DNA from: Pseudomonas sp. EpS/L25
GTDB taxonomy: Bacteria; Pseudomonadota; Gammaproteobacteria; Pseudomonadales; Pseudomonadaceae
DNA length: 64,000 nucleotides
Assembly (NCBI RefSeq): GCF_001512295.1
Contig: NZ_LNUP01000018.1
Location: forward strand, 332,191 to 396,190
Direction: 5' to 3'
How positions within the stretch are numbered: the first letter of the stretch is position 1; each line of letters opens with the position of its first letter. Positions 1,870 to 16,189 of the stretch are shown here, piece after piece. Position numbers and translations under genes: made by a program. The notes below the pieces were generated by a model. That model was not told the DNA's origin, made no database searches, and saw nothing but the letters and a program-made list of their open reading frames with translations.

Positions 1870-3141
1870 TCAGGGGGCGACGGCCAGAGCCCGTTCAAAG
1901 AAGTCCGGCGTACCGAAGTTGCCAGACTTGAGCGCCAGAGCGATGTCGCCCTGGGCACCGCTGCCCAGGGTCCAGGGTACTCCAGGTGCGATGGGAGCGC
2001 CGATACGCAGGCTGGAGATCGCCAGCGCCTTCACTACCGCGCCGGAGGTTTCGCCCCCGGCCACCACCAGGCGTCTCACTCCACGCTCACGTAGGCCGCT
2101 AGCGATACGCGCCAGGGCGTCTTCGACCAACTGGCCGGCCCGTTCCACTCCCAGTTGAGCCTGGGCCTTGCGTACCTCTTCGGGATCGGCACTGCCGTAA
2201 ATGAGGACTGGTTCCTGCGCCAGGCGCGGTTCGGCCCAGGCCAGTGCGGCGCTGACCTGATCCTCGCCAGCGGCCAGGGCCAGCGGATCGAGGCGAAAGC
2301 CCGGTCGGTGCGCTAGCCAGACGGCAACCTGCCCGCGGGTAGCGGTCGAACAGCTGCCCGATAGCACGGCAGCGTGACCCGGCATAGCGGGCAGCGCTGC
2401 CGCTTCGGCATGGGCAGCCAGCAGGCCGCGACGGCGGAAGTTGGCCGGCAGTCCCAGCGCCACGCCGGAGCCGCCGGTGACCAGCGGATGATCCGCCACT
2501 GCGGCGCCTATGGCGTGAAGGTCGGCATTGTCGATGGCGTCGACGATGGCATGACGGACGCCCTGCGCCTGGAGGTCGGCCAGGGCCGTGGAGAGCGCGG
2601 CGCTGCCCTGGCGCACCTGGGGCAGGCGTACCAGGCCCACGGGGTGGGGCGTCTGGGCTTGCAGCACCCGCATCAGGTTGCTGTCGGTCATGGGCGTCAG
2701 CGGATGGTGGCGCATGCCCGACTCGGCCAATGGCTGGTCACCCACGAACAGCTGACCGAGGTAGAGCGTCCGGCCGTTCTCGGGGAAGGCGGGGCAGGCG
2801 ATGCTCAACTTGGCGCCGAGGGCTTCGGCCAGGGCGTCGGCGACCGGTCCGATGTTGCCGGCAGCGGTGGAGTCGAAGGTGGAGCAATACTTGAAGAAGA
2901 ACTGCTGGCAACCCAGCTCCTGCAGATAGGCGAGGGCCGCCAAGGACTGGGCGACCGCCTTGGTGGCGGGCAGGGTACGGGACTTGAGGGCGACCACCAC
3001 GGCATCGGCGTCGGCGGGCAGCGGGCCCTCCGGCACGCCTAGTACCTGAACGGTGCGCATGCCCTGGGCCACCAGGGTACTGGCGAGGTCGGTCCCGCCG
3101 GTGAAGTCGTCGGCAATGCAGCCCAGTAGCGGCGTGGCCAT
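1870..3141 (-). CDS. DUF1537 four-carbon acid-sugar kinase (OtnK/DtnK type)
   Basis: 423 aa, typical for the family. The N-terminal domain opens with LLGCIADDFTGGTDLAS (Asp11/Asp12), the DUF1537 substrate-binding signature. The C-terminal nucleotide-binding domain ends with VVAGGETSGAVV (about residues 359-371) and then LGSGAQGDIALALKSGNFG. Characterised members phosphorylate 3-oxo-tetronates (OtnK) or D-threonate (DtnK) at O4 using ATP. The ATG at 3141 gives the canonical N-terminus; a much longer in-frame extension to 3684 overlaps the LeuB-like gene and is spurious. It lies 68 bp downstream of the LeuB-like dehydrogenase on the same strand. Sequence alone does not tell whether the substrate is an oxidised or a free aldonate. 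An inverted repeat (3171-3193, arms CCCGGGG/CCCCGGG) lies in the gap before the gene. Confidence 0.88.
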   Translation of the reverse strand: MATPLLGCIADDFTGGTDLASTLVAQGMRTVQVLGVPEGPLPADADAVVVALKSRTLPATKAVAQSLAALAYLQELGCQQFFFKYCSTFDSTAAGNIGPVADALAEALGAKLSIACPAFPENGRTLYLGQLFVGDQPLAESGMRHHPLTPMTDSNLMRVLQAQTPHPVGLVRLPQVRQGSAALSTALADLQAQGVRHAIVDAIDNADLHAIGAAVADHPLVTGGSGVALGLPANFRRRGLLAAHAEAAALPAMPGHAAVLSGSCSTATRGQVAVWLAHRPGFRLDPLALAAGEDQVSAALAWAEPRLAQEPVLIYGSADPEEVRKAQAQLGVERAGQLVEDALARIASGLRERGVRRLVVAGGETSGAVVKALAISSLRIGAPIAPGVPWTLGSGAQGDIALALKSGNFGTPDFFERALAVAP

Positions 3142-3209
3142 GGGGATTTTCCTTGTTCTTGTCAGGGATGCCCGGGGCGCGAATGTCCCCGGGAGCAACG
3201 GGTACCGCC

Positions 3210-4280
3210 CTAGCCGCGCAGAACCTGGGCCACCGCTTGGCCAAAGGCGGCGCAGCCCAGGCTGCCGCCCAGGTCGGCGGTGCGCTTGGCCGGATCTTCC
3301 AGCACCTTGTCCACCGCCTGGTCGATCGCTGCGGCCGCTTCCTGCAGCTTGGCATTGCCACGGTGCTCGCCCATCCAGTGCAGCATCATGCCGATGGACA
3401 GGATCATCGATACCGGGTTGGCCTTGTCCTGGCCGGCGATGTCCGGCGCCGAGCCATGCTGGGCCTGGGCGCAGCAATGGATGTTGCTGGCCATGATGGA
3501 GCCGGCGAGGCCCAGGCTGCCGGAAAGTTCGCTGGCCAGGTCGCTGATGATGTCGCCATAGAAGTTGGTGGCCACCAGCACGTCGAAGCGTTCGGGGTTG
3601 CGCACCAGATGCGCGGTGGAGGCGTCCACCAGCAGGTCGTCCAGCTGCACCTCGGGGAATTCCTTGGCCACGTTGCGCACGCATTCAAGGAACAGGCCGT
3701 CGGTCATGTGGAAGCTGTTGGCCTTGTGGATGGCGGTGACCTTGCGGCGGCGCTTCATCGCCAGCTCGAAGGCCTGGCGGGCGATGCGCTCGCTGCAGTG
3801 GCGGGTGATCTTGCGAGTGGACAGCGCCATGTCCGGGGAGGGCATCACCTCGCCCCAGCCGCGGCTCATGTTGCGATCCGGATAGAAGCCTTCGGTGGCC
3901 TCGCGCATGATCACCAGGTCCATGCTCTTGCCTTCCTTCATGTTGGAGGCGAGGAACGGCCGGGTGCGCGCCGGGCGCACGTTGGCATAAAGATCGAGAC
4001 CGATGCGAAAGCCGGCAGAGACGTTGCGACCGCCTTTCTCAGGCGCCGGGTAGTCGGCATGGGACTGGGTGCCGAGGATCACGCCATCGTAGGTCTTGGC
4101 CTTTTCCAGGGTCTCGTCGCGCAGAGTGATGCCGTGCTTCTCCAGGCTGGTGAAGCCGACGTCGTCGTAATCGAAGGTCAATCCCAGGCCGAACTTCTCG
4201 TTGGCGACATCCAGCACGGACATGGACGCCTGGATGATTTCAGGACCGATACCGTCGCAGGGCAGGACCAGAATGCGCAT
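3210..4280 (-). CDS. Isocitrate/isopropylmalate dehydrogenase-family oxidative decarboxylase (LeuB-like)
   Basis: 356 aa. The family landmarks are all present: N-terminal LPCDGIGPEI, the substrate-binding YANVRPAR, MREATEGFY, KANSFHMTDGLF, FYGDIISDLASEL for metal ligands, and HGSAPDIAGQDKANP for nucleotide binding. The family oxidises a hydroxyl next to a carboxylate-bearing carbon and usually releases CO2 using NAD(P). It is probably not the biosynthetic LeuB: it sits in a catabolic island directly upstream of a DUF1537 kinase. It may act on tartrate or malate (TDH-like) or on a phosphorylated tetronate, taking the role PdxA2 plays in the D-threonate pathway. The ATG at 4280 is preceded by AAGGAG. 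A 28-bp operator-like palindrome lies 77 bp upstream. Confidence 0.85.
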   Translation of the reverse strand: MRILVLPCDGIGPEIIQASMSVLDVANEKFGLGLTFDYDDVGFTSLEKHGITLRDETLEKAKTYDGVILGTQSHADYPAPEKGGRNVSAGFRIGLDLYANVRPARTRPFLASNMKEGKSMDLVIMREATEGFYPDRNMSRGWGEVMPSPDMALSTRKITRHCSERIARQAFELAMKRRRKVTAIHKANSFHMTDGLFLECVRNVAKEFPEVQLDDLLVDASTAHLVRNPERFDVLVATNFYGDIISDLASELSGSLGLAGSIMASNIHCCAQAQHGSAPDIAGQDKANPVSMILSIGMMLHWMGEHRGNAKLQEAAAAIDQAVDKVLEDPAKRTADLGGSLGCAAFGQAVAQVLRG

Positions 4281-4356: not shown

Positions 4357-4384
4357 TTTGTACTTTATGTCACCTAAAAACAAT
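4357..4384. promoter_or_regulatory. 28-bp interrupted palindrome, island operator site 1
   Basis: The site reads TTTGTACT, ten bases, TAAAAACAAT. It has the same 28-bp length and arms as three other intergenic sites in the island (7794, 11197, 14180). It lies 77 bp upstream of the LeuB-like start. The rest of the 225-bp gap (4281-4505) is AT-rich relative to the genes and shows no ORF. A GntR-type operator is inferred; the arms could also contribute promoter elements. Confidence 0.6.
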
Positions 4385-4505
4385 TCGTGCAACGGCGCAG
4401 GACAAAAAAAGCGGTGCCTATTCGTGGCTTGCGAACGCGCGCGCGCAACGCCTGTACGGAGGACGGCCGGGTAGGAGAGGTGGAAGGTTCAGGCGGGTGG
4501 GCAGA

Positions 4506-5426
4506 TCAGGCTGGCTGCTTTGCCGCGTCTTCTTCGGCGGCTTCGAGTTGGCGGTCCTGGGCGGCCTTGAGCCGGCTGACCACATCGAGATGCTGGTGCA
4601 GGAAGAGCGCCGCTTCTTCGCGACTGCCGCCTTCGAGCAGGTCGAGGATATGCAGGTGTTCCTGACTCTGGCCGATCTGCCGTGAGCGTTCGACGTTGGA
4701 ACGATAGGCCATGAAGCGACGCAACTGATTCTGCCGGCGGATGGCTTCGAGCAGGAAGACGTTGCCCGAGCAGCGCACCAGCAATTCGTGGAAGCTGGAG
4801 CCGATCTCGAACAGCTGGGCGCGGGACAGGGTGAACAGCTCCCCGTCCAGCAGCCGTTGCTGCCACTGACGGGCCTGGGCGAAGGCGCGCTTGTCGATGC
4901 GATAGCCCGGCTCGCGCAGGGCGAAGGGCTCGATGGCCATGCGGAAGCGATAGCTCTGGATATGGGCTTCACTGTCATGCAGGAAGGTATTGATCTCCCA
5001 CCCCTGGCCAGGGCGGCGTTCGATCATGGCCTCGCTGGCCAGGCGGTTGAGCACCTTGAGCAACTGGCCGCGGGGGATCTGGTAGCGCCGCAGCAACTCG
5101 GCCTCGAAAAAGCTGCTGCGGATGTCGCCACGCAGCATGTCGTCCACCACCCGCAGGTAGAGCTCCTCATAGGGATCGTCCTCGCTGGGCAGGGCCGTCT
5201 GCTCGATGGTGCTGGCATTACGGGTCAGGAAGAAGCCGCGATTAGGCTCCTTGCGCGCCAGTCCCAGCTCTTCGAGAAGGGCAAAACCGCGTCGTACCGG
5301 TGAACGGGAAACCCCCAGCTCCTTGGCGAAGGCCTCTTCGCGCAACGGATCGCCGGCCTTCATCGAGCGGGCACGGGCAAGATCGATGATGCGCGGGGCG
5401 AGCTGTTCGGCGAGGTCTTTTTTCAT
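4506..5426 (-). CDS. GntR-family regulator with two N-terminal winged helices
   Basis: 306 aa, longer than a standard 220-250 aa FadR/FCD regulator. The first wHTH (about residues 5-70) contains REEAFAKELGVSRSPVRRGF and LARKEPNRGFFL. A second wHTH-like unit follows at about 90-150: LRVVDDMLRGDIRSSFFEAE, LLRRYQIPRGQLLKVLNRLA, then IERRPGQGWEI. The C-terminal half is an all-helical FCD-like ligand domain with HELLVRCSGNVFLLEAIRRQ. It is the only GntR protein in the island and the natural candidate to bind the 28-bp sites. An inverted repeat at 5449-5464 lies 22 bp upstream of its start, possibly for autoregulation. The C-terminal tail is acidic and Ala-rich. Confidence 0.88.
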   Translation of the reverse strand: MKKDLAEQLAPRIIDLARARSMKAGDPLREEAFAKELGVSRSPVRRGFALLEELGLARKEPNRGFFLTRNASTIEQTALPSEDDPYEELYLRVVDDMLRGDIRSSFFEAELLRRYQIPRGQLLKVLNRLASEAMIERRPGQGWEINTFLHDSEAHIQSYRFRMAIEPFALREPGYRIDKRAFAQARQWQQRLLDGELFTLSRAQLFEIGSSFHELLVRCSGNVFLLEAIRRQNQLRRFMAYRSNVERSRQIGQSQEHLHILDLLEGGSREEAALFLHQHLDVVSRLKAAQDRQLEAAEEDAAKQPA

Positions 5427-5448
5427 CGGGATTCTTCTGGACTACGGG

Positions 5449-5464
5449 TACTGGAAGGCCAGTA
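5449..5464. promoter_or_regulatory. Inverted repeat upstream of the GntR gene
   Basis: TACTGG-AAGG-CCAGTA is a perfect 6-bp inverted repeat. It is flanked by two direct copies of ACGGGTA (5444-5450 and 5464-5470) spaced 20 bp apart. Its position just upstream of the GntR start suggests an operator or a leader structure. It does not resemble the 28-bp island motif. Confidence 0.35.
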
Positions 5465-5541
5465 CGGGTAGGTTGGCTAACTCGTTTTCGCGGATTGCCG
5501 TGACGTTACCACAACGGCGACCGCTGGAGCATTTGAGCGGC

Positions 5542-5570
5542 CGGTGACGGCGCCGGAAGCGCCGTCACCG
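5542..5570 (-). terminator. Hairpin after the CitMHS gene
   Basis: CGGTGACGGCGC, a five-base loop, then GCGCCGTCACCG form a perfect 12-bp stem 7 bp beyond the CitMHS stop on the minus strand. There is no U-tract, so it may be a stabiliser or a weak intrinsic terminator separating SDR-CitMHS from the GntR gene. Confidence 0.55.
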
Positions 5571-5576
5571 AGGCCT

Positions 5577-6914
5577 TCAGACTGCCGAATAGAGGGGAAA
5601 GAGTCCCAGCGCCATGGAGGCCGCCATGATCAAAAAGCTCAGGGCGAACGCCCATTTCATGGTGTATTTCTGGTGGTCACTAAACTCCACTCCGGCCAGG
5701 CCCACCAGCAGATAGGTGGACGCTACCAGAGGACTGAGCAGATGCACGGGCTGCCCGATGAGCGAAGCCCGACCGATCTCCGCCGCCCCTATGCCATAGG
5801 CCTCGGCTGCGTGGGCCAGTACCGGCAGTACGCCATAGTAGAAGGCGTCGTTGGACATGAAGAAAGTGCCGGGGATGCTCAGCAGCGCGGTGATGGGCGC
5901 CAGGTAGTTACCCCAGCTTTCCGGCAGGGCCCAGAGCAGCGAGCCGGACATCGCCTTGACCATGCCGGTCCCGGAGAGGATGCCGGCGAAGATGCCGGCG
6001 GCGATGAATATCGAGATCTGGGTGAGCGCTGCGGGTGCATGGGCTGATATACGCCGACGCTGGTCGTCCATCTGCCGATAGTTGATGGTGAGGGCGATGC
6101 AGAAGGCGACCATGAACAGGATCGGCAGCGGCAACAATTCGATCACCAGGCAGGTCATCAGCGCCAGGGTAAGGATGGCGTTGAACCAGAACAGCTTGGG
6201 CCGGCGGAGCTCGGCGTTCTCATCGCTCAAGGTGAGCAGATCACCCATGTCTTCGTCCATGCCAGTCGCGCGTAGCGAGTTGCTGCCCGGCGCGACCAGC
6301 AGACCCAGACGGCGCCGCTCCCGCAGCCCCAGCCAGAACGCCAACGCCAGGACCCCGATGAAGCTGATAATCATCGGCGGAATCAGCGGAATGAACAGCT
6401 GGCTGGTTTCCACCTGCAGCGCGGCGGCGACCCGCGCCATGGGTCCGCTCCAGGGCAGCAGGTTGGTGACGCTGGCAGCGAGGATGACCACGCAGGGCAG
6501 GATCAGTGGATTCAAGCGCAGCCGCCGGAACAGCGGCAGCATGGCGGTCAGGGTGATCATGTAGGTGGTGGAACCGTCGCCGTCCAGGGAGACCATGCCG
6601 GCCAGCAGGGTGGCGAAGAGCACGGCTTTGGCGGGGTCGCCTTTGATCAGCTTGATGAAGGTGCGGATGATGGGGTCGAACAGTCCGGTATCGAACATCA
6701 GGCCGAAGTAGAGGATGGCGAACATCACCATGATGGCGGTCGGCGCGACCTTGCGCAGGCCATCGATCATCATTGGCCCCATCTCCGGAGCGAAGCCGCC
6801 AATGATGGCGAAGATGATGGGGATGATGGTCAGGGCCACCAAGGGCGGCAGCCGCTTGGTCATGATCAGTGCCATGAAGGTCACGATCATTCCATAGCCG
6901 AGCAGAGAGAGCAT
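5577..6914 (-). CDS. CitMHS-family carboxylate transporter
   Basis: 445 aa with about 12 hydrophobic segments. The start MLSLLGYGMIVTFMALIMTK, the loop MVSLDGDGSTTYMIT and LLPWSGPMARVAAAL are typical of the citrate-Mg2+:H+ symporter (CitMHS) family in the ion-transporter superfamily. Members import citrate-metal complexes or other carboxylates. The ATG at 6914 follows CCAGGAG. A merged 747-aa reading frame through the SDR gene in another frame is artefactual. It lies 68 bp downstream of the SDR gene and is probably co-transcribed. With DctA nearby and the AbrB-family protein, the island has three carboxylate-transporter-like proteins. The substrate is not deducible. Confidence 0.88.
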   Translation of the reverse strand: MLSLLGYGMIVTFMALIMTKRLPPLVALTIIPIIFAIIGGFAPEMGPMMIDGLRKVAPTAIMVMFAILYFGLMFDTGLFDPIIRTFIKLIKGDPAKAVLFATLLAGMVSLDGDGSTTYMITLTAMLPLFRRLRLNPLILPCVVILAASVTNLLPWSGPMARVAAALQVETSQLFIPLIPPMIISFIGVLALAFWLGLRERRRLGLLVAPGSNSLRATGMDEDMGDLLTLSDENAELRRPKLFWFNAILTLALMTCLVIELLPLPILFMVAFCIALTINYRQMDDQRRRISAHAPAALTQISIFIAAGIFAGILSGTGMVKAMSGSLLWALPESWGNYLAPITALLSIPGTFFMSNDAFYYGVLPVLAHAAEAYGIGAAEIGRASLIGQPVHLLSPLVASTYLLVGLAGVEFSDHQKYTMKWAFALSFLIMAASMALGLFPLYSAV

Positions 6915-6982
6915 CTGTATCTCCTGGTTCCAAAATACAACTTTTGTTGTGGTTGTCGTTGTGATCCGGTGGAGGAGCGTAA

Positions 6983-7726
6983 TTAGCTCATGTGCAGGCC
7001 ACCATTGAGGGAGAAGTCCGCACCGGTGGCGAAGGCCGATTCGTCCGAGGCGAGCCAGGAGCAGATAGAAGCAATCTCTTCCGGAGTGCCCAGGCGCCGC
7101 ATAGGAATCTCGTGGACGATACGGTCCATGAGATCGGTGCGGGTCAAGGCCTTGAGCCGAGGCGTGGCGATGTAGCCGGGCGAGACGGTATTGACCGTCA
7201 CCCCGCGCGCCGCCAGTTCGCGGGCCAGCGCGCGGGTGAAGCCCCGTATTGCCGACTTGGCGGTGGAGTAGTTGACCTGACCGACATGACCGAGTTGGGC
7301 GTTGACTGAAGAGATATTGATGATCCGGCCCCAGCCGCGGGAGGTCATGCCATCGATCACCTGGCGGGTGACATTGAACAGCGAGTTGAGGTTGGTATCG
7401 ATGACGGTCTGCCAGTCGCCCGGCTGCATGTCGCGGAACACCACGTTGCAGGCGGTGCCGGCGTTGTTGACCAGCACATCGATCGGTCCGACCTCGTCGC
7501 GGATCTTGGCGAAGGCGGCGCGCGTGGATTCCCAATCGGCGACGTTGCCTTCGGCGGCGATGAACTCGAAGCCCAGCTTGCGCTGCTGCGCGAGCCAGTC
7601 GGTCTTGAGTGGTGAATCCGGTCCGCAGCCAGCGATGACGGTGAAGCCGTCCCGGGCCAGGCGTTGGCAGACGGCAGTACCCAAGCCGCCCATGCCGGCG
7701 GTGACGAAGGCGATACGCTTGCTCAT
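6983..7726 (-). CDS. Short-chain dehydrogenase/reductase (PhaB/FabG-like)
   Basis: 247 aa. Classical SDR motifs: cofactor loop TAGMGGLGTAV near the N-terminus, NNAG (VLVNNAGTACN), the catalytic Ser in IINISSVNAQLG, YSTAK (Tyr/Lys pair), and PGYIATP. Sequence style is closest to acetoacetyl-CoA reductase-type SDRs, but the context is sugar-acid catabolism, so oxidation or reduction of a hydroxyacid is more likely than PHB synthesis. The ATG at 7726 is preceded by AGGAGA. It heads the SDR-CitMHS operon and is divergent from the OtnC-like gene; the 28-bp palindrome at 7794 lies between them. Confidence 0.85.
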   Translation of the reverse strand: MSKRIAFVTAGMGGLGTAVCQRLARDGFTVIAGCGPDSPLKTDWLAQQRKLGFEFIAAEGNVADWESTRAAFAKIRDEVGPIDVLVNNAGTACNVVFRDMQPGDWQTVIDTNLNSLFNVTRQVIDGMTSRGWGRIINISSVNAQLGHVGQVNYSTAKSAIRGFTRALARELAARGVTVNTVSPGYIATPRLKALTRTDLMDRIVHEIPMRRLGTPEEIASICSWLASDESAFATGADFSLNGGLHMS

Positions 7727-7793
7727 GTGTTGCTCTCCTGTTGTCGTTTTTGTCAGTTGCGAGCCCTTGTACGAGCAAGGTACGGTGCGTCAT

Positions 7794-7821
7794 ATTGTTC
7801 TGTAAACATCTAAAATACAAT
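7794..7821. promoter_or_regulatory. 28-bp interrupted palindrome, island operator site 2
   Basis: ATTGTTCT, ten bases, AAAATACAAT. It lies in the 198-bp divergent region, 68 bp from the SDR start and 104 bp from the OtnC-like start, so one site could control both operons. Confidence 0.65.
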
Positions 7822-7924
7822 TTGTCGACGTTCTGCGCGTTTCCTGTCGGCCGTCGAAGTCTTCCACGGCAACGGGCAGTTCTGTCGGGACTGAGAACTA
7901 GAACGAGTAACCAGAGAGGCTTAC

Positions 7925-8563
7925 ATGACCCCGGAAAGTCGCTTGCGTGAAGAAATTTGTACGATCGGCGAAAACTTCTATCGACGCGGCTACTGCGTCG
8001 GCAGCGCTGGCAACATCAGTGCGCGCCTCGAGGATGGCTGGCTGATCACCCCTACCGATGCCTGCCTGGGCCGCCTCGATCCGGTGGCGATTGCCAAGGT
8101 CAGCAGCAGGGGCGAATGGCTATCGGGGGACAAACCTTCGAAGACCTTGACGCTGCATCGGCGGATCTATGAGCGGGCCACTAGCGCGAATGCGGTGGTC
8201 CATACTCATTCCACCTCCCTCGTCGCGCTCACGTTGCTGGAATGCTGGCGCAGCGATGCCATCCTGCCGCCTATCACGCCCTACCAGGTCATGAAGGTCG
8301 GGCGCATTCCGTTGATTCGCTATCGCCGGCCCGGTGCCTCCGAGGTGGCCGACGAGGTCGCCCAGTTGGCGGCGGAGGTCCGCGGCGTGATGCTGGAGCG
8401 ACTGGGCCCGGTCCTCTGGGAAAGCTCGGTGAGCCGGGCCAGCTATGCCCTTGAAGAATTGGAGGAGACGGCGCGTCTGTGGCTGCAGACCACGCCTCGC
8501 CCCGCGCCTCTAGATGATGTTGCCGTGGCCGAACTGAGCGCCGTCTTCGGAGCTAGTTGGTGA
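7925..8563 (+). CDS. Class II aldolase-family protein, OtnC-like, with altered active site
   Basis: 212 aa, the size of 3-oxo-tetronate 4-phosphate decarboxylase (OtnC). Shared landmarks include GSAGNISARL (28-35), ITPTDACLG, LSGDKPSK, VVHTHSTS with metal ligands His93/His95, and YALEELEETARL. Two expected catalytic features look lost. The acid/base Glu normally in the 'SKE/SSE' motif is Thr74 (PSKTLTLH), and the third metal ligand, normally His in 'NHGPV', is Leu160 (ERLGPVL). If my recollection of family residues is right, ordinary OtnC chemistry is doubtful. It heads the divergent operon with the lactonase-like gene, whose GTG start overlaps its stop. Confidence 0.85.
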   Translation: MTPESRLREEICTIGENFYRRGYCVGSAGNISARLEDGWLITPTDACLGRLDPVAIAKVSSRGEWLSGDKPSKTLTLHRRIYERATSANAVVHTHSTSLVALTLLECWRSDAILPPITPYQVMKVGRIPLIRYRRPGASEVADEVAQLAAEVRGVMLERLGPVLWESSVSRASYALEELEETARLWLQTTPRPAPLDDVAVAELSAVFGASW

Positions 8564-9744
8564 GCGGGCCCCTCTCGCAGGCATCCGACTCAGGGGCTTC
8601 GTGGGTATTCACGGGCTCCGGAGCGGTCCTGGGCTGCTATCGCTTCCAGCCGGAAGCGGGTGAGCTGGAATGGATCAGCGAAAGGGCGCTACCCGCCAAG
8701 ATCCAGTACGCCACCTTCGATCCGCAGCGACGGCTGGTCTATGTGGCCGTGAGTGATGCTGGCGCGGGCGTAACCGGCGCCCCGGGGCACCTCCACCAGT
8801 TACACACACTCGGCCTGGATACCTTACCGGCAGCGCCACGCATCATCTGCGAGCCACTGACGTTGCCGGAACGACCGATCCACGTAGCCTTGGATACCCA
8901 GGGCGCTGCCTTGCTGATCGCCTTCAACCGGTCCGGGAGCATCGCCCGAGTGGCATTGGATACCCTGGGCTGTCCACGCAACGAGCCGGTGACTACCTTG
9001 CCCGCCGGCATATTCACCCATCAGGTTCTTCCTGCTCCCAACGGCCAGTATGTGATCGCCTTGAGTCGTGGCAATGCGGCCACGGCAGGACGGGAAGAAG
9101 AGCGGGGTAGTGTTCATCTCTACCGGTACCGGGCGGGGGCGCTGCTAGAAACTGGCTATCACCCCTGTGAGCCACAGCTTGGCCCCCGTCACCTGGCCTT
9201 CCATCCCATGAGGCCTTGGCTATACATGGCCATGGAGCGAGGAAATGCGCTGCGTCACCACCACCTCGATGAGCAAGGCGAACCGGTCTTTCCGGCCGTC
9301 GACCACGTGCCCACTCTGCGAGATGCAGAGCACGGGCGGCTGGACCGGCAGAAAGGAGGCTGTCTGGTCTGCCATCCCAACGGCCGCCATCTTTACGTCA
9401 GCAATCGCTCAGACATCATTGAAATGCGAGGTGGTCGCCCCGAGCTCAGTGCTGGTGAAAATACGATTGCCGTCTTCGCGCTCGATCAGCTCACTGGCGC
9501 GCCGCGTCTAGTCCAGCAATTAGACAGCGGCGGAATAGAGCCACGTTGCCTCGCGATCGACGGTTCGGGTCGCTGGCTTATCGTCGGAAATCAACTACCC
9601 GCCTGGCTGCCAGCGGCCGCGCGTTATCAGCCGGCCAACTTGGCTGTCTTTCGCATCGGTGAGGAAGGTCGGCTGGATTACCACGGCCAACACCAGCTGG
9701 CAGCGTACGCCAGCCTGTTCTGGCTGGACGTACTTCCCGCCTAA
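8560..9744 (+). CDS. Lactonase-family beta-propeller protein (PF10282-like)
   Basis: 394 aa. Repeating blade-like segments, such as FDPQRRLVYVAVSDAG, LAFHPMRPWLYMAMERG, VCHPNGRHLYVSNRSD and LAIDGSGRWLIVGNQ, match the seven-bladed 6-phosphogluconolactonase/muconate-cycloisomerase-type propeller family. No signal peptide is seen, so it is likely cytoplasmic. I use the GTG at 8560, which overlaps the OtnC-like stop as GTGA and suggests translational coupling; a TTG one codon upstream is possible. Hydrolysis of an aldonolactone to feed the acid-sugar pathway is the simplest guess, but many members of this fold have no confirmed activity. Confidence 0.75.
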   Translation: MSGPLSQASDSGASWVFTGSGAVLGCYRFQPEAGELEWISERALPAKIQYATFDPQRRLVYVAVSDAGAGVTGAPGHLHQLHTLGLDTLPAAPRIICEPLTLPERPIHVALDTQGAALLIAFNRSGSIARVALDTLGCPRNEPVTTLPAGIFTHQVLPAPNGQYVIALSRGNAATAGREEERGSVHLYRYRAGALLETGYHPCEPQLGPRHLAFHPMRPWLYMAMERGNALRHHHLDEQGEPVFPAVDHVPTLRDAEHGRLDRQKGGCLVCHPNGRHLYVSNRSDIIEMRGGRPELSAGENTIAVFALDQLTGAPRLVQQLDSGGIEPRCLAIDGSGRWLIVGNQLPAWLPAAARYQPANLAVFRIGEEGRLDYHGQHQLAAYASLFWLDVLPA

Positions 9745-9764
9745 GGGGCCAGACGGCTGTTCGC

Positions 9765-11126
9765 TCAGCTACGCGGCAAGGCGTCCGGGTCCAACCGCGA
9801 GGTTGTCGGCGCCGACAGGGGGGCGCTCGTGGATGGAGTAGCGTCCGCCTTCAGTTCAGGTTCTGGCCGCCGCTCCAACGCGGCGTGCATCCGCTCCAGG
9901 TCCAGCGAACCCTCCCATTTGGCGATCACCACACCGGCGACGGCATTGCCGATGATGGACGTTAAAGCCCGCGCCTCGCCCATGAACCGATCGATACCCA
10001 CCAGCAAGGCGATTGCACTAAGAGGTAGCACCTGCACCGCGCTCAAGGTAGCCGCGAGCGCTACGAAGCCACCGCCCGGAACGCCGCTCATGCCCTTGGA
10101 CGTAAACAGGCCGATCCCAAGGATGGTGAGCTGCTGCATCAGGGTCAGCGGGGTATCGGTCGCCTGGGCGATGAATAGCACCGACATGGTGAGGTAGATG
10201 CAGACGCCGTCCAGATTGAAAGCGTAGCCAGTGGGGATCACCAGGCCGACCACCTCTTTCTTGCAGCCAGCCTTTTCCAGTTTCTGTAGAAGACCAGGCA
10301 GGGCTGGTTCGGCGCTGGCGGTACCCAGGGTGATCAGCAATTCGGTCTTCAGGTAGGCCAGGAACTTGAACAGGTTGATGCCGCATGCCTGCAGGATGCC
10401 GCCCAGCACCAGGCCGATGAAGAGAATGCAGGTGACATAGAAGGTCAGCATCAAGTAACCGAGCGAGGCAAGGCTGCCGATACCGTACTTCCCGACGGTG
10501 AAGGCGATCGCGCCGAAGGCTCCCAAGGGAGCGAATTTCATCAGATAGCCGATGATCGAGAACAGAGTGGTCAGGCACTGATCGATAACGTCCACCAGTC
10601 CGCGCACCCTGTCTCCGCCTTGGGCCAGCGCCATGCCAAACAGCACGGCCAGAAACACCACCGGCAGGATCTCGCCGTGCACGAAGGCGCCGACCAGCGT
10701 CTCGGGGATGATGTGCAGGAAAAATTCCTTCAGCGACTGTTCGGCGGCCACCTTGGCATAGCCGGCGACCGCGTTCAGGTCCAGCGAGCGGGGATCGACG
10801 TGCATGCCGGCACCCGGCTGCATCAGATGGGCCACCAGGATGCCGATCAGCAGGGCCAGGGTGGTGACCACCTCGAAGTAGAGCAGCGCCTTGGCGCCCA
10901 CGCGACCGACCGCCTTGACGTCGCCCATCCGGGCAATGCCGACCACGACGGTGGCGAAGACTACCGGTGCCACCAGCATTTTGATCAGCTTGATGAAGGC
11001 ATCGCCCAAAACCTTGAGCTGGACGGCGGCCTGGGCGTCGACCAGGGCGAACAGAGCGCCCAAGACGACCCCGATGAGGACTTGGACATAGAGCGGGGGC
11101 ATACGACGGGAGATAGCTGACGCCAT
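9765..11126 (-). CDS. dctA: C4-dicarboxylate:cation symporter, DctA family
   Basis: 453 aa. DAACS family signature regions are present: IKLIKMLVAPVVFATVVVGI, the serine-rich re-entrant region LITLGTASAEPALPGLL, PTGYAFNLDGVCIYLTM, TSKGMSGVPGGGFVALAATL and DRFMGEARALTSIIGNAVAG. DctA imports succinate, fumarate, malate or related acids with Na+/H+. The C-terminus has an unusual Pro/Ser/Thr-rich tail (SAPLSAPTTSRLDPDALP). The ATG at 11126 has AAGGAG upstream. This is likely a specialised paralogue within the island, because a 28-bp operator-like palindrome lies 71 bp upstream. It is convergent with the lactonase-like gene. Confidence 0.85.
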   Translation of the reverse strand: MASAISRRMPPLYVQVLIGVVLGALFALVDAQAAVQLKVLGDAFIKLIKMLVAPVVFATVVVGIARMGDVKAVGRVGAKALLYFEVVTTLALLIGILVAHLMQPGAGMHVDPRSLDLNAVAGYAKVAAEQSLKEFFLHIIPETLVGAFVHGEILPVVFLAVLFGMALAQGGDRVRGLVDVIDQCLTTLFSIIGYLMKFAPLGAFGAIAFTVGKYGIGSLASLGYLMLTFYVTCILFIGLVLGGILQACGINLFKFLAYLKTELLITLGTASAEPALPGLLQKLEKAGCKKEVVGLVIPTGYAFNLDGVCIYLTMSVLFIAQATDTPLTLMQQLTILGIGLFTSKGMSGVPGGGFVALAATLSAVQVLPLSAIALLVGIDRFMGEARALTSIIGNAVAGVVIAKWEGSLDLERMHAALERRPEPELKADATPSTSAPLSAPTTSRLDPDALPRS

Positions 11127-11196
11127 GGTCGAGCTCCTTGACTACGGTGTTGTTATTGTCGAGCTCCACTCATGAGGAGCTATCGGGGTAGTATTT

Positions 11197-11224
11197 ATTG
11201 TTCTTCAATAAATCAAAATACAAT
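11197..11224. promoter_or_regulatory. 28-bp interrupted palindrome, island operator site 3
   Basis: ATTGTTCT, ten bases, AAAATACAAT; the arms are identical to site 2. It lies 71 bp upstream of dctA, in the gap to the aconitase gene, which is transcribed toward dctA. Confidence 0.65.
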
Positions 11225-11315
11225 CTAGATCAAGTCGGGACGTCCGGCAATGCTGGCAGACGCTCGCTCCAGAGCACTGTGCGTGGGCAATGAAGAGGAT
11301 GTGACAGGGTGGGCA

Positions 11316-11336
11316 GGCGGACCCTTGGGGTCCGCC
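11316..11336 (-). terminator. Hairpin after the island aconitase
   Basis: GGCGGACCC, TTG, GGGTCCGCC form a perfect 9-bp stem 20 bp beyond the aconitase stop. No U-tract follows on the minus strand, so termination strength is uncertain. Confidence 0.5.
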
Positions 11337-11356
11337 ACTACAACAGGGCGCGGCGT

Positions 11357-14044
11357 CTAGGCGTCGCTGTCACCCAGGGTCTTGCGGATCACATACGGCA
11401 GGATGCCGCCCTGGCGCAGGTAGAGGATCTCCTGGCTGGAATCCAGCGGCAGCTCCAGCGTGACGCTGGCCTGGCGACCGTCCGAGCGGGTGATCTGTAG
11501 GGTGATAGGATTCAATCCGACGCGCAGCTCGTCCAAGCCATAGAAGTCCAGGCGCTCGTCACCGGTCAGGCACAGGCTCTCGGCGACTTGCCCGGCGGGG
11601 AAGCGCACCGGGAAGATGCCCATGCCGATCAGGTTGCTGCGGTGAATTCGTTCGAAGCTCTGTGCCACCACCAGCCTGACGCCCAGGGTAGCCTGGGCCT
11701 TGGCCGCCCAGTCACGACTGGAGCCGGCGCCGTAGTTGATGCCGGCGAACACCACCAGTGGCGTGCCGCGGCGGACCCAACTGAGGGCGGCGTCGTACAC
11801 CGGCAAGACCTCGCCGTCGGCTGCCCGCGCCCAGCCGCCCTGGCCCGGATGCGCCGGCAGCAGGCGATTCTTCACTGCGCGGTTGACGAAGGCACCGCGC
11901 ATCATCACCTCGTGATTGCTGCGCCGGGTCGAGTATTGATTGAGGTCTTCCGGCGTCTCGCCATGGTCGACCAGCCAGCGGCCGGCCGGACTGTCCAGGG
12001 GAATGGCACTGGCCGGCGAGATGTGGTCGGTGGTGATGTTATCGCCCAGCACCATCAGCGTGCGGGCGTCGCGTACGGCCAGCGACGTCGGCGGCTCTGG
12101 GGTAATCCCCTGCAGATAGATCGGCCGGCGCAGATAGGTCGAGCTGGGCGACCAGGGAAAGCGCACGCTGCCCTCGGCGGACAACGCCTGCCAGTGATGG
12201 GTCCCATCCCAGAGAGTGGCGTTGCGCTGGCGGAACAACTCCGGGCGCACTGTCTCGCGGACCAGCGCCTGGACGTCGTCATCGTCCGGCATCAGGTCGC
12301 GCAGGTAGACCGGCTGACCGGCTTGATCCAGGCCCAGCACGGCCTGTTCGAGATCGACGTCGATACTGCCGGCGAGGGCATAGGCGACTACGAGGGCCGG
12401 CGAAGCCAGGTAGCCGAATTGCGCCTTGGGATTGACCCGGCCTTCGAAGTTGCGATTGCCCGAGAGCACTACCACCGTTTTCAGGCCCTGATCGGCGAAG
12501 GCTTCCACATGAGGTTCGAACTTGCCCGAGTTGCCGATGCAGGTCATGCAGCCGAAACCCGCCAGCTCGAAACCAAGGGCGGCGAAGTCGCTCAGCAGGT
12601 CGGCGTCCTGCAGGTAGTCGGCCACTACCCGGGAGCCAGGCGATAGGGAGGTCTTCACCCAGGGCTTGCGCGTGAGGCCACGCGCCCGCGCCCGTCGCGC
12701 CAGCAGCCCCGCCTGGATCATCTGGCTCGGATTGGCGGTATTGGTGCAACTGGTGATGGCGGCGATGGAGATGGCGCCGTGGGTCAGCGGCTGGCCAAAA
12801 CTCGGCTCGAAATAATCCGCCGGGGCAGGGGTGGAGCGGGCGATCAACGCCGTATCCGGTTCGGCACGGACCTGGGCACGAAAGGAGTTGGCGGCTTCAG
12901 CCAGTGGCTGCCACTGATGCGGCTGGTGCGGACCGGCCACGCTTGGCTCGATGCTGGCGAGATCCAGCGTGATGACCTCGGTGAAGGTGGGCTCGGGATC
13001 TTCGTCGTGGCGCCACAGGGTCTGCACCTCCAGGTAAGCGGCGACCCGCTCGCGCAGCTCGGGGCTGCGGCCGGTGAGCTCGAGGTACTCCATGGTCACC
13101 GTATCGAAGGGAAAGAACACCACGGTCGCGCCGTATTCCGGTGCCATGTTGGACAGGGTGCCGCGGGCGGCCCAACTCAGGCCCGACAGGCCCGGTCCGC
13201 AGAACTCGACGAACTTACCCACCACGCCGCGCTGACGCAGCAGCTGGGTGACTTTCAAGGATAGGTCTGTGGCGGTCACCCCCGGACGCAGCGCATTGGT
13301 CACATGGATACCGATGACCTCGGGAAAACTGATCGGTACTGGCTCGCCCAGCATGGCCGCCTGTCCTTCCAGGCCGCCCACGCCCCAGCCGAGGATGCCG
13401 ATGGCGTTGATCATCGGCGTATGGCTGTCGGTGGCGACCATGTCGTCCGGGTGCAGCAGCGGTTGGCCGTCGCTGGTCTCGCTTTCCCAAACCACGGTGC
13501 CCAGGGACTCCATGTTGACCTGGTGGATGATGCCAGTGCCCGGTGGGACCACCTTGAAGTTGTCCAGGCTCTCCTGCGCCCACTTGATGAACTGGTAGCG
13601 CTCGGTGTTGCGGCGGTAATCGATGTCCAGATTGGCTTCCACCGCGTCCGGCTCGGCGAAGCGTTCGACGATCACCGAGTGGTCGATGGTCAGCACCGCC
13701 GGGATGCGTGGATTCATCCGGCTCGGATCGCCGCCCAGTTCGGCCACCATGTCGCGCATGCCGGCGAAGTCGGCCAGGGCGGGCAGGCAGGTGGTGTCGT
13801 GGAACATCAAGCGGTTGGGCAGGAAGGGTGCTTCGCACGGCGGCCCTTCGCCACGGGCACGGGCCAATACCGGCGGTAGCGCCTCGGGAAAGCAGCGGGC
13901 GACGTTTTCCACCAGCAGACGCAGGGAGTAGGGCAGGCGCGCCAGGGTGTCGGCATCGAACAGACGCTTGAGGTCAACATAGGCGTAATGCCGGTCGCCG
14001 AGGGTGAGCTGGCCGGTGTAGGTGGAATCCAGGGCAAACTTCAT
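11357..14044 (-). CDS. Aconitase A-family hydratase, divergent island paralogue
   Basis: 895 aa, full AcnA length, with four-domain architecture and a C-terminal swivel domain. Cluster cysteines are present in AITSCTNTANP and FGCMTCIGNSG, and the active-site arginine-rich stretch INYGAGSSRDWAAKAQ is intact. It differs from the second aconitase at 28027-30726 at several normally conserved places: EYGATVVFFPFD instead of EYGATCGFFPVD, VEFCGPG instead of VEFFGDG, and GCMTC instead of GCTTC. It sits in the catabolic island with its own 28-bp operator-like site, so it may isomerise a citrate analogue rather than serve the TCA cycle. AcnD-type methylcitrate dehydratase is an alternative, but no prp genes are nearby. 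Confidence 0.85.
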   Translation of the reverse strand: MKFALDSTYTGQLTLGDRHYAYVDLKRLFDADTLARLPYSLRLLVENVARCFPEALPPVLARARGEGPPCEAPFLPNRLMFHDTTCLPALADFAGMRDMVAELGGDPSRMNPRIPAVLTIDHSVIVERFAEPDAVEANLDIDYRRNTERYQFIKWAQESLDNFKVVPPGTGIIHQVNMESLGTVVWESETSDGQPLLHPDDMVATDSHTPMINAIGILGWGVGGLEGQAAMLGEPVPISFPEVIGIHVTNALRPGVTATDLSLKVTQLLRQRGVVGKFVEFCGPGLSGLSWAARGTLSNMAPEYGATVVFFPFDTVTMEYLELTGRSPELRERVAAYLEVQTLWRHDEDPEPTFTEVITLDLASIEPSVAGPHQPHQWQPLAEAANSFRAQVRAEPDTALIARSTPAPADYFEPSFGQPLTHGAISIAAITSCTNTANPSQMIQAGLLARRARARGLTRKPWVKTSLSPGSRVVADYLQDADLLSDFAALGFELAGFGCMTCIGNSGKFEPHVEAFADQGLKTVVVLSGNRNFEGRVNPKAQFGYLASPALVVAYALAGSIDVDLEQAVLGLDQAGQPVYLRDLMPDDDDVQALVRETVRPELFRQRNATLWDGTHHWQALSAEGSVRFPWSPSSTYLRRPIYLQGITPEPPTSLAVRDARTLMVLGDNITTDHISPASAIPLDSPAGRWLVDHGETPEDLNQYSTRRSNHEVMMRGAFVNRAVKNRLLPAHPGQGGWARAADGEVLPVYDAALSWVRRGTPLVVFAGINYGAGSSRDWAAKAQATLGVRLVVAQSFERIHRSNLIGMGIFPVRFPAGQVAESLCLTGDERLDFYGLDELRVGLNPITLQITRSDGRQASVTLELPLDSSQEILYLRQGGILPYVIRKTLGDSDA

Positions 14045-14179
14045 GGGCTGTCCGGTCTGGTTGTCGTGATCGTGGGCGGTGTGAACGTCATGCTAGGAAA
14101 GCTGGCAGTCACTCGAAATTGGTATCTGGCTAACGCAGCGTTCTCGGTCGGCGAACGCTGGAATCCAGGTGCGGCTAAT

Positions 14180-14207
14180 ATTGTTCTTTATGGATATAAA
14201 AGACAAT
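14180..14207. promoter_or_regulatory. 28-bp interrupted palindrome, island operator site 4
   Basis: ATTGTTCT, ten bases, AAAAGACAAT. It lies in the 235-bp divergent gap between the aconitase (136 bp away) and the TerC gene (73 bp away). The rest of the gap shows no ORF. Confidence 0.65.
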
Positions 14208-14279: not shown

Positions 14280-14963
14280 TTGCTTAACGCCCTGTCCGAT
14301 CCGGTCTTCCTGACCAGTCTGCTCCAGATCGTCATCATCGATATCCTGCTCGGCGGCGACAACGCCGTGGTGATCGCCCTGGCCTGTCGGCGTCTGCCGG
14401 AAGCGCAACGCCGCAAGGCCATCCTGGGCGGGGTGGCGGGCGCCGTGATCCTGCGCATCCTGCTGCTGTTCGTCGCCAGCTACGTGCTGGGCTGGCCGCT
14501 GCTCAAGGTGGTGGGCGGCGTGCTGCTGCTGTGGATCGGCATCAAGTTGCTGCTGCCCGAGGACGACGAGGCCGACGTCAAGGCCGGTACCACCCTGGGC
14601 CAGGCCATCTGGATCATCATGGTGGCCGACGTGGTGATGAGTCTGGACAACGTCATCGCCGTGGCGGGCGCCGCCCAGGGCCATCTGGGCCTGGCCGTCG
14701 CCGGGGTGCTCATCAGCATCCCCATCATCATCTTCGGCAGCCAGCTCATCCTGAAGCTCATGGAAAGGTTTCGCTGGCTGGTGGTGGCCGGCGCGGCCCT
14801 GCTCGGCTGGATCGCCGGCAAGCTGATCGCCAGCGACGAACTCCTGCAGGCTTGGCTCGGTACTGGAGACCTGCACTGGGTTCCCTATGCGGCTGGCGTC
14901 GGCGGCGTCCTCATCGTGCTCGTGACCGGCCAACTGTTGGCACGGCGAACGGTTACGGCCTGA
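14280..14963 (+). CDS. TerC-family integral membrane protein (YjbE-like)
   Basis: 227 aa with about seven membrane segments. The TerC signature is duplicated: IIDILLGGDNAVVIALACR near the N-terminus and VVMSLDNVIAVAGAAQGH in the middle, each carrying the conserved acidic/Asn metal-binding-like motif. Family members are linked to tellurite resistance or Mn2+ efflux. The apparent start is TTG at 14280, preceded by GAGG at a good distance; no early in-frame ATG exists. It is followed 30 bp later by the RraA-fold gene. It may share the divergent control region (site 4) with the aconitase. Transport of metal for the island's metalloenzymes is speculation. Confidence 0.82.
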   Translation: MLNALSDPVFLTSLLQIVIIDILLGGDNAVVIALACRRLPEAQRRKAILGGVAGAVILRILLLFVASYVLGWPLLKVVGGVLLLWIGIKLLLPEDDEADVKAGTTLGQAIWIIMVADVVMSLDNVIAVAGAAQGHLGLAVAGVLISIPIIIFGSQLILKLMERFRWLVVAGAALLGWIAGKLIASDELLQAWLGTGDLHWVPYAAGVGGVLIVLVTGQLLARRTVTA

Positions 14964-14993: not shown

Positions 14994-15467
14994 ATGACCT
15001 TCAAGACCACTGATCTCTGCGACGCGCATGGCGACCACGCGAGGGTTCTGCAGCCGATCTTCCAGGACCTGGGCGGGCGGCCTGATTTCGTCGGGCCGGC
15101 GCTGACGGTCAGGTGCTTCGAGGACAACTCGCGCATCAAGGAACTCAGCCAGCAGCCGGGTGAGGGGCGCGTGCTGGTGGTCGATGGTGGCGGCAGCGAC
15201 CGCTGTGCGCTGCTCGGCGACATCATCGCGGAGGACCTGGTGAAGAACGGCTGGGCCGGTGCGCTCATCTATGGCCAGGTCCGCGACAAGGCGGTGCTGA
15301 CCGGGTTGCCGCTGGCCATCAAGGCGCTGGGCGTCTCACCGCGCAAGTCGGTCAAGCGTAACGAAGGCCAGATCGGCGAGCCGGTGACCTTTGCCGGGCA
15401 GACGATCCGCAACGGTGATCACCTTTATGCCGACGCCGACGGCGTGATTATCCTCGACGCCCACTAA
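14994..15467 (+). CDS. RraA-fold protein: RNase E regulator or class II HMG/OAA aldolase-type enzyme
   Basis: 157 aa. N-terminal TTDLCDAHGDHARVLQPIF, then RVLVVDGGGSDRCALLGD, LIYGQVRDKAVLTG and GDHLYADADGVIIL are clear RraA-family features. The segment from Asp in LLGDII to RD in GQVRD has exactly 20 intervening residues, giving the D-X20-R-D motif of the HMG/CHA aldolase and oxaloacetate decarboxylase members of this fold. As I recall, E. coli RraA has RQ rather than RD here. A metabolic role is therefore possible, and the catabolic setting favours it. AAGGAG precedes the ATG. It is likely co-transcribed with terC. Confidence 0.85.
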   Translation: MTFKTTDLCDAHGDHARVLQPIFQDLGGRPDFVGPALTVRCFEDNSRIKELSQQPGEGRVLVVDGGGSDRCALLGDIIAEDLVKNGWAGALIYGQVRDKAVLTGLPLAIKALGVSPRKSVKRNEGQIGEPVTFAGQTIRNGDHLYADADGVIILDAH

Positions 15468-15508: not shown

Positions 15509-16189
15509 ATGAGCGCTATCGCCATGACCGCTGCCAAACGCGTCTTTCTGATTCACGCCACCCGCATTGCGATCGAACCCATCAACGCTGCCTTCGCTCA
15601 AGGCTGGCCAGAGGCGAAGCGTTTCGATCTCTGGGACGACTCGCTGTCGAAGGACGCCGGTACCGCCGGGGGTAGTACCCCGGCGCTTGACCAGCGCATC
15701 CAGGACCTCGCCGATCATGCCTTTCGCAGCGAGGCCGACGCCGTGCTTTTTACCTGCTCTGCCTTTTCCAGCGCCATCGAAGCCTGCCAGCGTCGTCATC
15801 AGCGACCTGTCCTCAAGCCCAATGAAGCGATGGTGCAGGAGGCGCTGGCCATAGGCGGACGCATCGCTGCCCTGACAACCTTTGGCCCGGCAGGCGCGGC
15901 CATTGTCAGCGACTTCGAGCGCGAGGCAAGCCGCCGTGGCCAGGCGGCGGACATCACACCGATCCTCTGCGAAGGCGCGCTGGAAGCCCTGCATGCGGGT
16001 GACCAGGCCCGCCACGACGCCCTGATCGCCGCAACTGCAGAGCGGCTACGCGGCGACTACGACATGCTCTGCTTCGCGCAATTCTCAATGACCGCTGCCC
16101 AATCGGCCAGCGAAGCCGCCTGGGGCGGCTCGGTGCTTACCACGCCGACCAGCGCCGTGCGGCGGCTGCGGCAGCTGCTTGAAGGGTAG
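15509..16189 (+). CDS. Asp/Glu/hydantoin racemase-superfamily protein
   Basis: 226 aa. Two pseudo-symmetric halves each carry a family cysteine: VLFTCSAFSSAI in the first and MLCFAQFSMTAA in the second. The start region VFLIHATRIAIEPINAAF is typical. The family includes amino-acid racemases, hydantoin racemase, arylmalonate decarboxylase and maleate isomerase; which reaction applies here is not visible. Maleate-isomerase or decarboxylase chemistry would fit the carboxylate island. The ATG at 15509 is used; a second in-frame ATG at 15524 is an alternative. It is the last gene of the island on the plus strand. Confidence 0.75.
   Translation: MSAIAMTAAKRVFLIHATRIAIEPINAAFAQGWPEAKRFDLWDDSLSKDAGTAGGSTPALDQRIQDLADHAFRSEADAVLFTCSAFSSAIEACQRRHQRPVLKPNEAMVQEALAIGGRIAALTTFGPAGAAIVSDFEREASRRGQAADITPILCEGALEALHAGDQARHDALIAATAERLRGDYDMLCFAQFSMTAAQSASEAAWGGSVLTTPTSAVRRLRQLLEG

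Follow-up and report, generated by a model that had tools for sequence, protein, structure and literature searches.

A 28-bp palindrome with a fixed 18-bp gap as probable operator of a GntR/FCD regulator with two predicted winged helices in a Pseudomonas catabolic island

Introduction

Which protein reads a long palindrome that recurs at constant length in front of the operons of a catabolic gene island, and how could it span such a site? The question is raised by a stretch of 64,000 nucleotides from Pseudomonas sp. EpS/L25 (contig NZ_LNUP01000018.1, positions 332,191 to 396,190), called the window below and always meant at its full length, in which an earlier note had described four 28-bp palindromic sites and proposed one regulator and one regulon of about 11 genes. 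Two proteins of the island, one GntR-type and one LysR-type, had been named as candidate binders. Comparing related loci, we find that the sites are very probably operators of the GntR regulator with an FCD ligand domain encoded at 4506..5426. The LeuB-like protein of the island (isocitrate/isopropylmalate dehydrogenase-like) puts the host genome near Pseudomonas oryzihabitans, with an identity of 99-100%.

Results

Four sites in the window and the genome

All four sequences were confirmed at the coordinates given by the earlier note (Table 1), and they are the only matches of WTTGT-N18-ACAAW in the window, against 0.01 expected; four or more matches were reached in none of 100 shuffles. A scan of the 5.4-Mb genome with the full pattern of the note returned four matches, all inside the island, and none for the reversed control. 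Likewise, ATTGTTCT-N10-AAAATACAAT with up to three mismatches found the same four places (control: one forward, none reverse), and the looser WTTGT-N18-ACAAW found seven, the four island sites and three elsewhere (control: one). Four genomes of the same genus that carry the island (G002, G003, G007, G009) have 3-5 matches of the looser pattern each, 2-3 of them in the island.

Conserved spacing and placement in related loci

Using the LeuB-like protein as bait, we obtained 322 stretches matching the search pattern. A relative is encoded in 315 of them, and the best 80 yielded 78 loci (L042-L119; 1.56 Mb). WTTGT/ACAAW arms separated by 18 bp occur 62 times, in 34 of these loci, while forty other gaps between 0 and 40 bp gave 0-10 sites each (mean 3.7, maximum 10) and the arms read backwards, as a control, 0-8 per gap. 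The equal length and fixed spacing noticed in the window are thus exact, and the comparison with islands of relatives, which had been suggested as a check, finds both arms and gap kept. The asymmetric consensus of the earlier note is lost in other loci, the C-bearing arm lying on the opposite side in L054 and others. Indeed, the consensus of the 53 distinct related sites is symmetric, about ATTGTACT-N12-AGTACAAT; as TTGT/ACAA was set by the search, each half was free to vary only at positions 1 and 6-14, of which 1, 6, 7 and 8 carry information and 9-14 hardly any.

Sites were assigned to homologues of window genes if they lay from -40 to 400 bp from the start given by tblastn. By this rule 52 of the 62 related sites found a gene and ten, some of them chance-like, did not; for comparison, 28 of 82 matches with gaps of 8-28 other than 18 fell within this range. 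The sites lie before homologues of the short-chain dehydrogenase (SDR) gene (14 sites, 66-84 bp), LeuB (9, 54-83 bp), citM (9) and the racemase-like gene (9, 17-110 bp), with smaller numbers at terC (3, 73 bp), LysR, aldolase and GntR genes (2 each), RraA and aconitase (1 each). The nine citM sites overlap the first base of the start codon and the ribosome-binding site, and it is at this very position, in other Pseudomonas loci occupied by a strong site, that the window carries the weak fifth version which the note had suspected at the CitMHS start, with arms GTTGT...ACAGA on the coding strand.

GntR rather than LysR as the binder

The presence of a WTTGT site (T-type below) follows the GntR protein: such a site was found in 19 of 19 loci encoding a homologue of at least 60% identity, in 32 of 52 at 37.5% or above, and in 2 of 26 below. 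For LysR the corresponding counts are 12 of 23 loci with a homologue of more than 35% identity and 22 of 55 without, which is no association (p = 0.45); site presence does not track the LysR gene as that of a LysR operator would. That the LysR-type protein binds the sites and GntR is a mere neighbour is therefore very unlikely, and we rejected it as the binder. Its gene does lie directly behind those of LeuB and the kinase, homologues occur in Pseudomonas and enterobacterial islands, and two related sites stand 53 and 63 bp before a LysR gene, but a LysR above 35% identity is lacking in 22 of the 34 loci with sites, and the sites accompany GntR homologues into clusters of other gene content. 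Of the two candidates of the earlier note, it is thus GntR that the association favours.

Three arm types in one frame

With homologues in other Proteobacteria the 28-bp frame stays constant and the fifth base is T, G or C. G-type sites belong to alphaproteobacterial LeuB islands, C-type sites to enterobacterial islands and to aconitase/tricarboxylate clusters. WTTGG-N18-CCAAW, again 28 bp, lies between GntR and LeuB in L096, L102, L104, L107 and L110, as well as in L108 (GntR identity 37.1%), all six being alphaproteobacteria. Over the 78 loci, G-type arms count 15 at N18 against 1-8 at other gaps of 8-30, C-type arms show a modest peak (21 at the 28-bp frame, up to 18 elsewhere), and A-type arms have none (4 at N18, up to 15 elsewhere). 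When the fifth base is ignored, WTTG-Nn-CAAW gives 180 matches at the 28-bp frame against 71-138 at other gaps of 8-33. In L108 (8858) and L102 (8860) a second G-type 28-bp site lies about 1 kb from the first, beyond the GntR gene, which suggests paired operators in some alphaproteobacterial islands.

These arm types also bear on the alternative offered by the earlier note, that the arms are sigma-70 promoter boxes common to the four operons. TTGTTC-N15-TACAAT, read towards the aldolase gene, reaches 8 of 12 matches, but its spacer is 15 bp, other placements near the sites score equally well, and some sites overlap a ribosome-binding site. Because other clades have TTGG/CCAA or TTGC/GCAA as arms at unchanged length and the asymmetry is not conserved, we regard this reading as extremely improbable and rejected it.

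Loci gathered through GntR rather than LeuB came from plasmids, where 140 records carry a homologue; 25 of the 60 listed were taken, chosen blind to the sites, and the first six were scanned before the remainder were fetched. At the 18-bp gap with a matching fifth base there are 11 sites in 11 of the 25 loci, against 0-6 at other gaps of 2-40. Four stand shortly before gntR (L173, L175, L179, L181), the divergent neighbour in L175 and L181 coding for a tricarboxylate transporter; two precede acnA (L171, L172) and one the gene of a substrate-binding protein (L168). In L189 and L192 the site separates gntR, or the gene upstream of it, from a divergent gene, and the last two are in unannotated records (L177, L178). 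When the region from -430 to +30 bp around the GntR starts was searched for perfect 7-bp arms, whatever their sequence, no length stood out (2 of the 25 loci at 28 bp, up to 4 elsewhere).

In enterobacterial LeuB islands, a length of 28 bp yields 30 matches of ATTGCATT/AATGCAAT arms with up to three mismatches, distributed over eight loci and close to the starts of kinase, LeuB and SDR genes; every other length scanned yields 0-10. Seven of these eight loci lack GntR inside the fetched flanks, and all seven genomes encode a homologue (32-35% identity) about 1 kb further out. Since the GntR stretches overlap the locus ends at 100% identity in seven of seven cases, the regulator belongs to the LeuB island, which rules out an unlinked GntR and with it a test in trans. 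Upstream of the start of each of these seven linked GntR genes (L194-L199, L201) lies a C-type site. Two Pasteurellaceae loci (L083, L087) come from genomes with no GntR homologue and have no C-type site better than three mismatches; L087 holds one T-type match, remote from all island genes and in our view due to chance.

Two predicted winged helices and an FCD domain

The GntR protein scores 57.7 bits with the winged-helix profile PF00392 (cut-off 27), in two stretches, and 47.1 bits with the FCD profile PF07729 (cut-off 24.3), fold matches covering residues 84-297. One winged helix is typical of the FadR subfamily, although there is no formal criterion, and here two are predicted; hhalign relates the first to the second with a probability of 97%, and the homologues align across both. 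The effector domain is FCD and not RCK_C as in BusR-like proteins. If GntR is indeed the binder, its operator is also not of the short form (GTM-N0-1-KAC), as the peak is at N18 and none is seen at short gaps. None of the solved structures among the Foldseek matches listed spans both winged helices and FCD, a list that cannot show absence, and searches of open-licence PMC papers turned up no case of tandem or duplicated winged helices in GntR proteins. At E <= 1e-40 the protein was found only in its own genome among the candidates scored from 369 genomes drawn across the class; either the family is sparse or others were lost through the cut-off and the limited scoring of candidates.

Arg41 of winged helix 1 is invariant in 44 aligned homologues and falls, in an alignment by eye, at Arg45 of FadR, which contacts G specifically according to a table in PMC4494728; Arg41 as a G contact would fit the G of the arms. 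Its equivalent in winged helix 2, Arg119, is Arg in only one of six C-type proteins. Together these residues favour the outer arms as the place of winged helix 1. A comparison by site type covered 36 homologues to which a single type could be given without ambiguity (24 T, 6 G, 6 C), loci of mixed type or with two GntR genes being set aside; one G-type assignment, that of L048, whose site lies 3.5 kb off, is doubtful. In this set, residues 45 and 46 vary with the site type. So do many residues elsewhere, because type follows clade, and the differences at 45 and 46 are compatible with arm reading without being a proof of it.

Genes of the island

The genes and sites are collected in Table 1. 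Several plasmids carry GntR in the company of aconitase, tripartite tricarboxylate transporters, a citrate symporter or lactonases, and other plasmids carry it without such company. Both the gene content of the island and these plasmid neighbours make a hydroxylated di- or tricarboxylate a likely, if unproven, ligand.

Table 1. Features of the island, with positions in the window
Feature	Position	Strand	Basis and context
LysR-type regulator, probably not the binder	954..1850	-	profile search; start as in the earlier note
3-oxo-tetronate kinase family	1870..3159	-	NF043035, 634 bits (cut-off 350); start chosen by us
LeuB-like dehydrogenase	3210..4280	-	PF00180; 0 of 17 NCBIfam families reached the cut-off
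Putative 28-bp operator	4357..4384	-	upstream of LeuB-like dehydrogenase/kinase/LysR operon; in relatives 9 sites 54-83 bp before LeuB
GntR/FCD regulator, two tandem winged helices, proposed binder	4506..5426	-	profile searches, AlphaFold2, hhalign
FCD ligand domain, residues 158-281	4584..4955	-	PF07729, E 3.9e-12
Winged helix 2, residues 87-145	4992..5168	-	AlphaFold2 model; PF00392, E 7.1e-6, 26.0 bits (cut-off 27)
Winged helix 1, residues 5-67	5226..5414	-	AlphaFold2 model; PF00392, E 3e-10
CitMHS citrate:proton symporter family (citM)	5577..6914	-	TIGR00784, 528 bits (cut-off 259.7); start chosen by us
Putative degenerate fifth operator	6914..6941	-	over citM ribosome-binding site and start; strong site there in other Pseudomonas loci
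Short-chain dehydrogenase (SDR)	6983..7726	-	profile searches
Putative 28-bp operator	7794..7821	no strand	between divergent SDR-citM-gntR and aldolase-lactonase operons; in relatives 14 sites 66-84 bp before SDR
3-oxo-tetronate 4-phosphate decarboxylase family (OtnC-like)	7925..8563	+	NF043034, 270 bits (cut-off 250)
Beta-propeller lactonase family	8557..9744	+	PF10282
DctA C4-dicarboxylate transporter	9765..11126	-	NF002461, 582 bits (cut-off 513)
Putative 28-bp operator	11197..11224	-	upstream of dctA; window and genome pattern scans
AcnA-type aconitase	11357..14044	-	TIGR01341, 1009 bits (cut-off 945)
Putative 28-bp operator	14180..14207	no strand	between divergent aconitase and terC; also in L042-L044, 73 bp from terC
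TerC family membrane protein, possible target of the 14180 site	14280..14963	+	PF03741, 169.6 bits
RraA-like protein, probable terC operon	14994..15467	+	PF03737, 149.8 bits
Asp/Glu-racemase-like protein, probable terC operon	15509..16189	+	PF01177, 39 bits (cut-off 31)

The island varies within the genus. Aldolase, lactonase and dctA (7925-11224 in the window) are missing between SDR and aconitase in G002, G003, G007 and G009, and in P. massiliensis (L045) the aldolase gene lies divergent from SDR. Pseudomonas oryzihabitans YY7 has a second, divergent set of CitMHS, SDR and LeuB-like (86%) genes, accompanied by another GntR homologue (36%) and lying about 11 kb away from the first LeuB gene (L036 2299-7731; L042 18312-20453); a TTGT-N18-ACAA site was not found in L036. 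A further 28-bp T-type site, common to G002 and G007, lies about 10 kb from LeuB (L122 1501-1528, L124 1501-1528) and in L122 overlaps the start of an aldehyde dehydrogenase frame (PF00171), a possible extra member of the regulon.

Discussion

One regulator and one regulon, as proposed in the earlier note, are well supported by the genome-wide specificity of the sites, their conservation in orthologous islands and their fixed positions at promoters. Judging from gene order, the regulon probably comprises about 13 genes and not 11 if gntR itself (in SDR-citM-gntR), lysR and terC-rraA-racemase are counted.

As to how the sites are read, we lean towards a GntR subfamily of its own, with members in alpha-, beta- and gammaproteobacteria, in which the winged helix would be duplicated within the chain and a plain dimer would read a ruler-like 28-bp operator, one base per outer arm being swapped (T, G or C) while the 18-bp frame is frozen, and so govern aconitase/LeuB-like/tricarboxylate-transport catabolism. 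In the arrangement that we think likely, the FCD-mediated dimer would present four winged helices to about 2.5 turns of DNA and read WTTGT at each end across the fixed gap, the outer arms being taken by winged helix 1 and the AT-rich centre by winged helix 2. Tandem winged helices may offer a reason for the long site, as a 10-bp FCD palindrome with about 9 bp added on each side for the extra winged helix would give a footprint of about 28 bp.

Several observations weigh against the reading of the sites as operators of a tandem-helix GntR protein. On the side of the sites, the p-values overstate, because the loci are related by descent, and 20 of the 52 loci with GntR at 37.5% identity or above have no T-type site, which counts against a uniform rule; five of the 20 have a G-type site and a few have near-matches, the remainder being unexplained (in L089 and L099 one outermost base of the T-type site is C or G, and L100 and L101 have a site with three mismatches). 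Furthermore, there is no perfect site in 14 of the 25 plasmid loci, no good site at two extra homologues in one enterobacterial genome (L193, with an internal stop, and L200), and no 28-bp site within 1.5 kb of a second full-length GntR homologue of this type (40%) that the host itself encodes on contig C14 (L139 1495-2334). On the side of the protein, the AlphaFold2 model with its two winged helices (pLDDT 88.5) is that of a monomer, PF00392 on winged helix 2 alone falls 1 bit under its cut-off and this domain may be a spacer, and the covariation of bases and residues follows clades, most of the strongest covarying residues lying outside the recognition helices.

Some of these points would suit a different geometry, in which GntR binds but the length of the site comes from two ordinary dimers or from a tetramer, as in BusR, with winged helix 2 as a spacer that reads nothing. 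BusR and Atu1419 illustrate that GntR-type proteins can be tetramers (PMC8517857, PMC7797058), the recognition helix of winged helix 2 is the more variable one, and the centre of the site carries little information. The homologues, however, align over both winged helices, and the 28 bp estimated above would need no tetramer. We consider this geometry a serious but distinctly less probable option than the tandem-helix dimer.

Binding likely keeps the uptake and breakdown of a hydroxylated di- or tricarboxylate repressed as long as neither this acid nor an intermediate is bound to FCD, repression being the most likely role because the sites lie near promoters or over the citM start. It is unlikely that GntR acts as an activator at most of these promoters: the LeuB and SDR sites, 54-84 bp before the start codon, are open to either role, and the FCD citrate regulator CitO is an activator (PMC4746285), but sites over the citM start codon are hard to square with activation.

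If the tandem-helix reading is right, it would account for a long fixed-spacing operator within the large FCD group, and the three arm types in one frame would form a natural series in which to study how tandem winged helices share the reading of DNA. On a practical matter, the motif could then be used to map regulons and substrates of clusters for hydroxy acids and tricarboxylates that are so far little understood, in Pseudomonas, Burkholderiales, rhizobia and enterobacteria.

Compared with known systems, the regulator shares its winged helix and all-helical FCD domain, matched over residues 84-297 of the model, with FCD-type (FadR-subfamily) regulators such as PmiR (7xp0), Atu1419/VanR and FadR, as well as TTGT/ACAA-like half-sites. 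PmiR senses 2-methylisocitrate. In the matched structures each chain has one winged helix and the operators are short, whereas here two winged helices are predicted and the gap is 18 bp. Indeed, the operator consensus of the FadR subfamily is GTM-N0-1-KAC (PMC4494728), and the operator of Atu1419, which has FCD and a single winged helix, is a 10-bp palindrome (PMC7797058). Weaker extra half-sites are described 7-12 nt from ordinary GntR sites (PMC4494728), an arrangement that differs from that of the 28-bp sites. Proteins of the YtrA subfamily resemble our case in their long palindromes with GT/AC far from the centre (PMC4494728), but have a short C-terminal domain in place of FCD. Of the catabolic genes, two (kinase and decarboxylase) score above the NCBIfam cut-offs for 3-oxo-tetronate catabolism, to which the island adds a LeuB-like dehydrogenase, aconitase, CitMHS and DctA. 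The closest functional parallel by analogy is BusR, a GntR-type winged helix joined to RCK_C, which reads a bipartite site, 22 bp apart, as a 'molecular ruler' at fixed distance (PMC8517857), and the conserved spacing suggests that binding may here too depend on the distance between half-sites. In BusR the ruler effect arises by tetramerising, four winged helices being brought together through a coiled coil without FCD, whereas the GntR regulator of the island is predicted to carry two in one chain.

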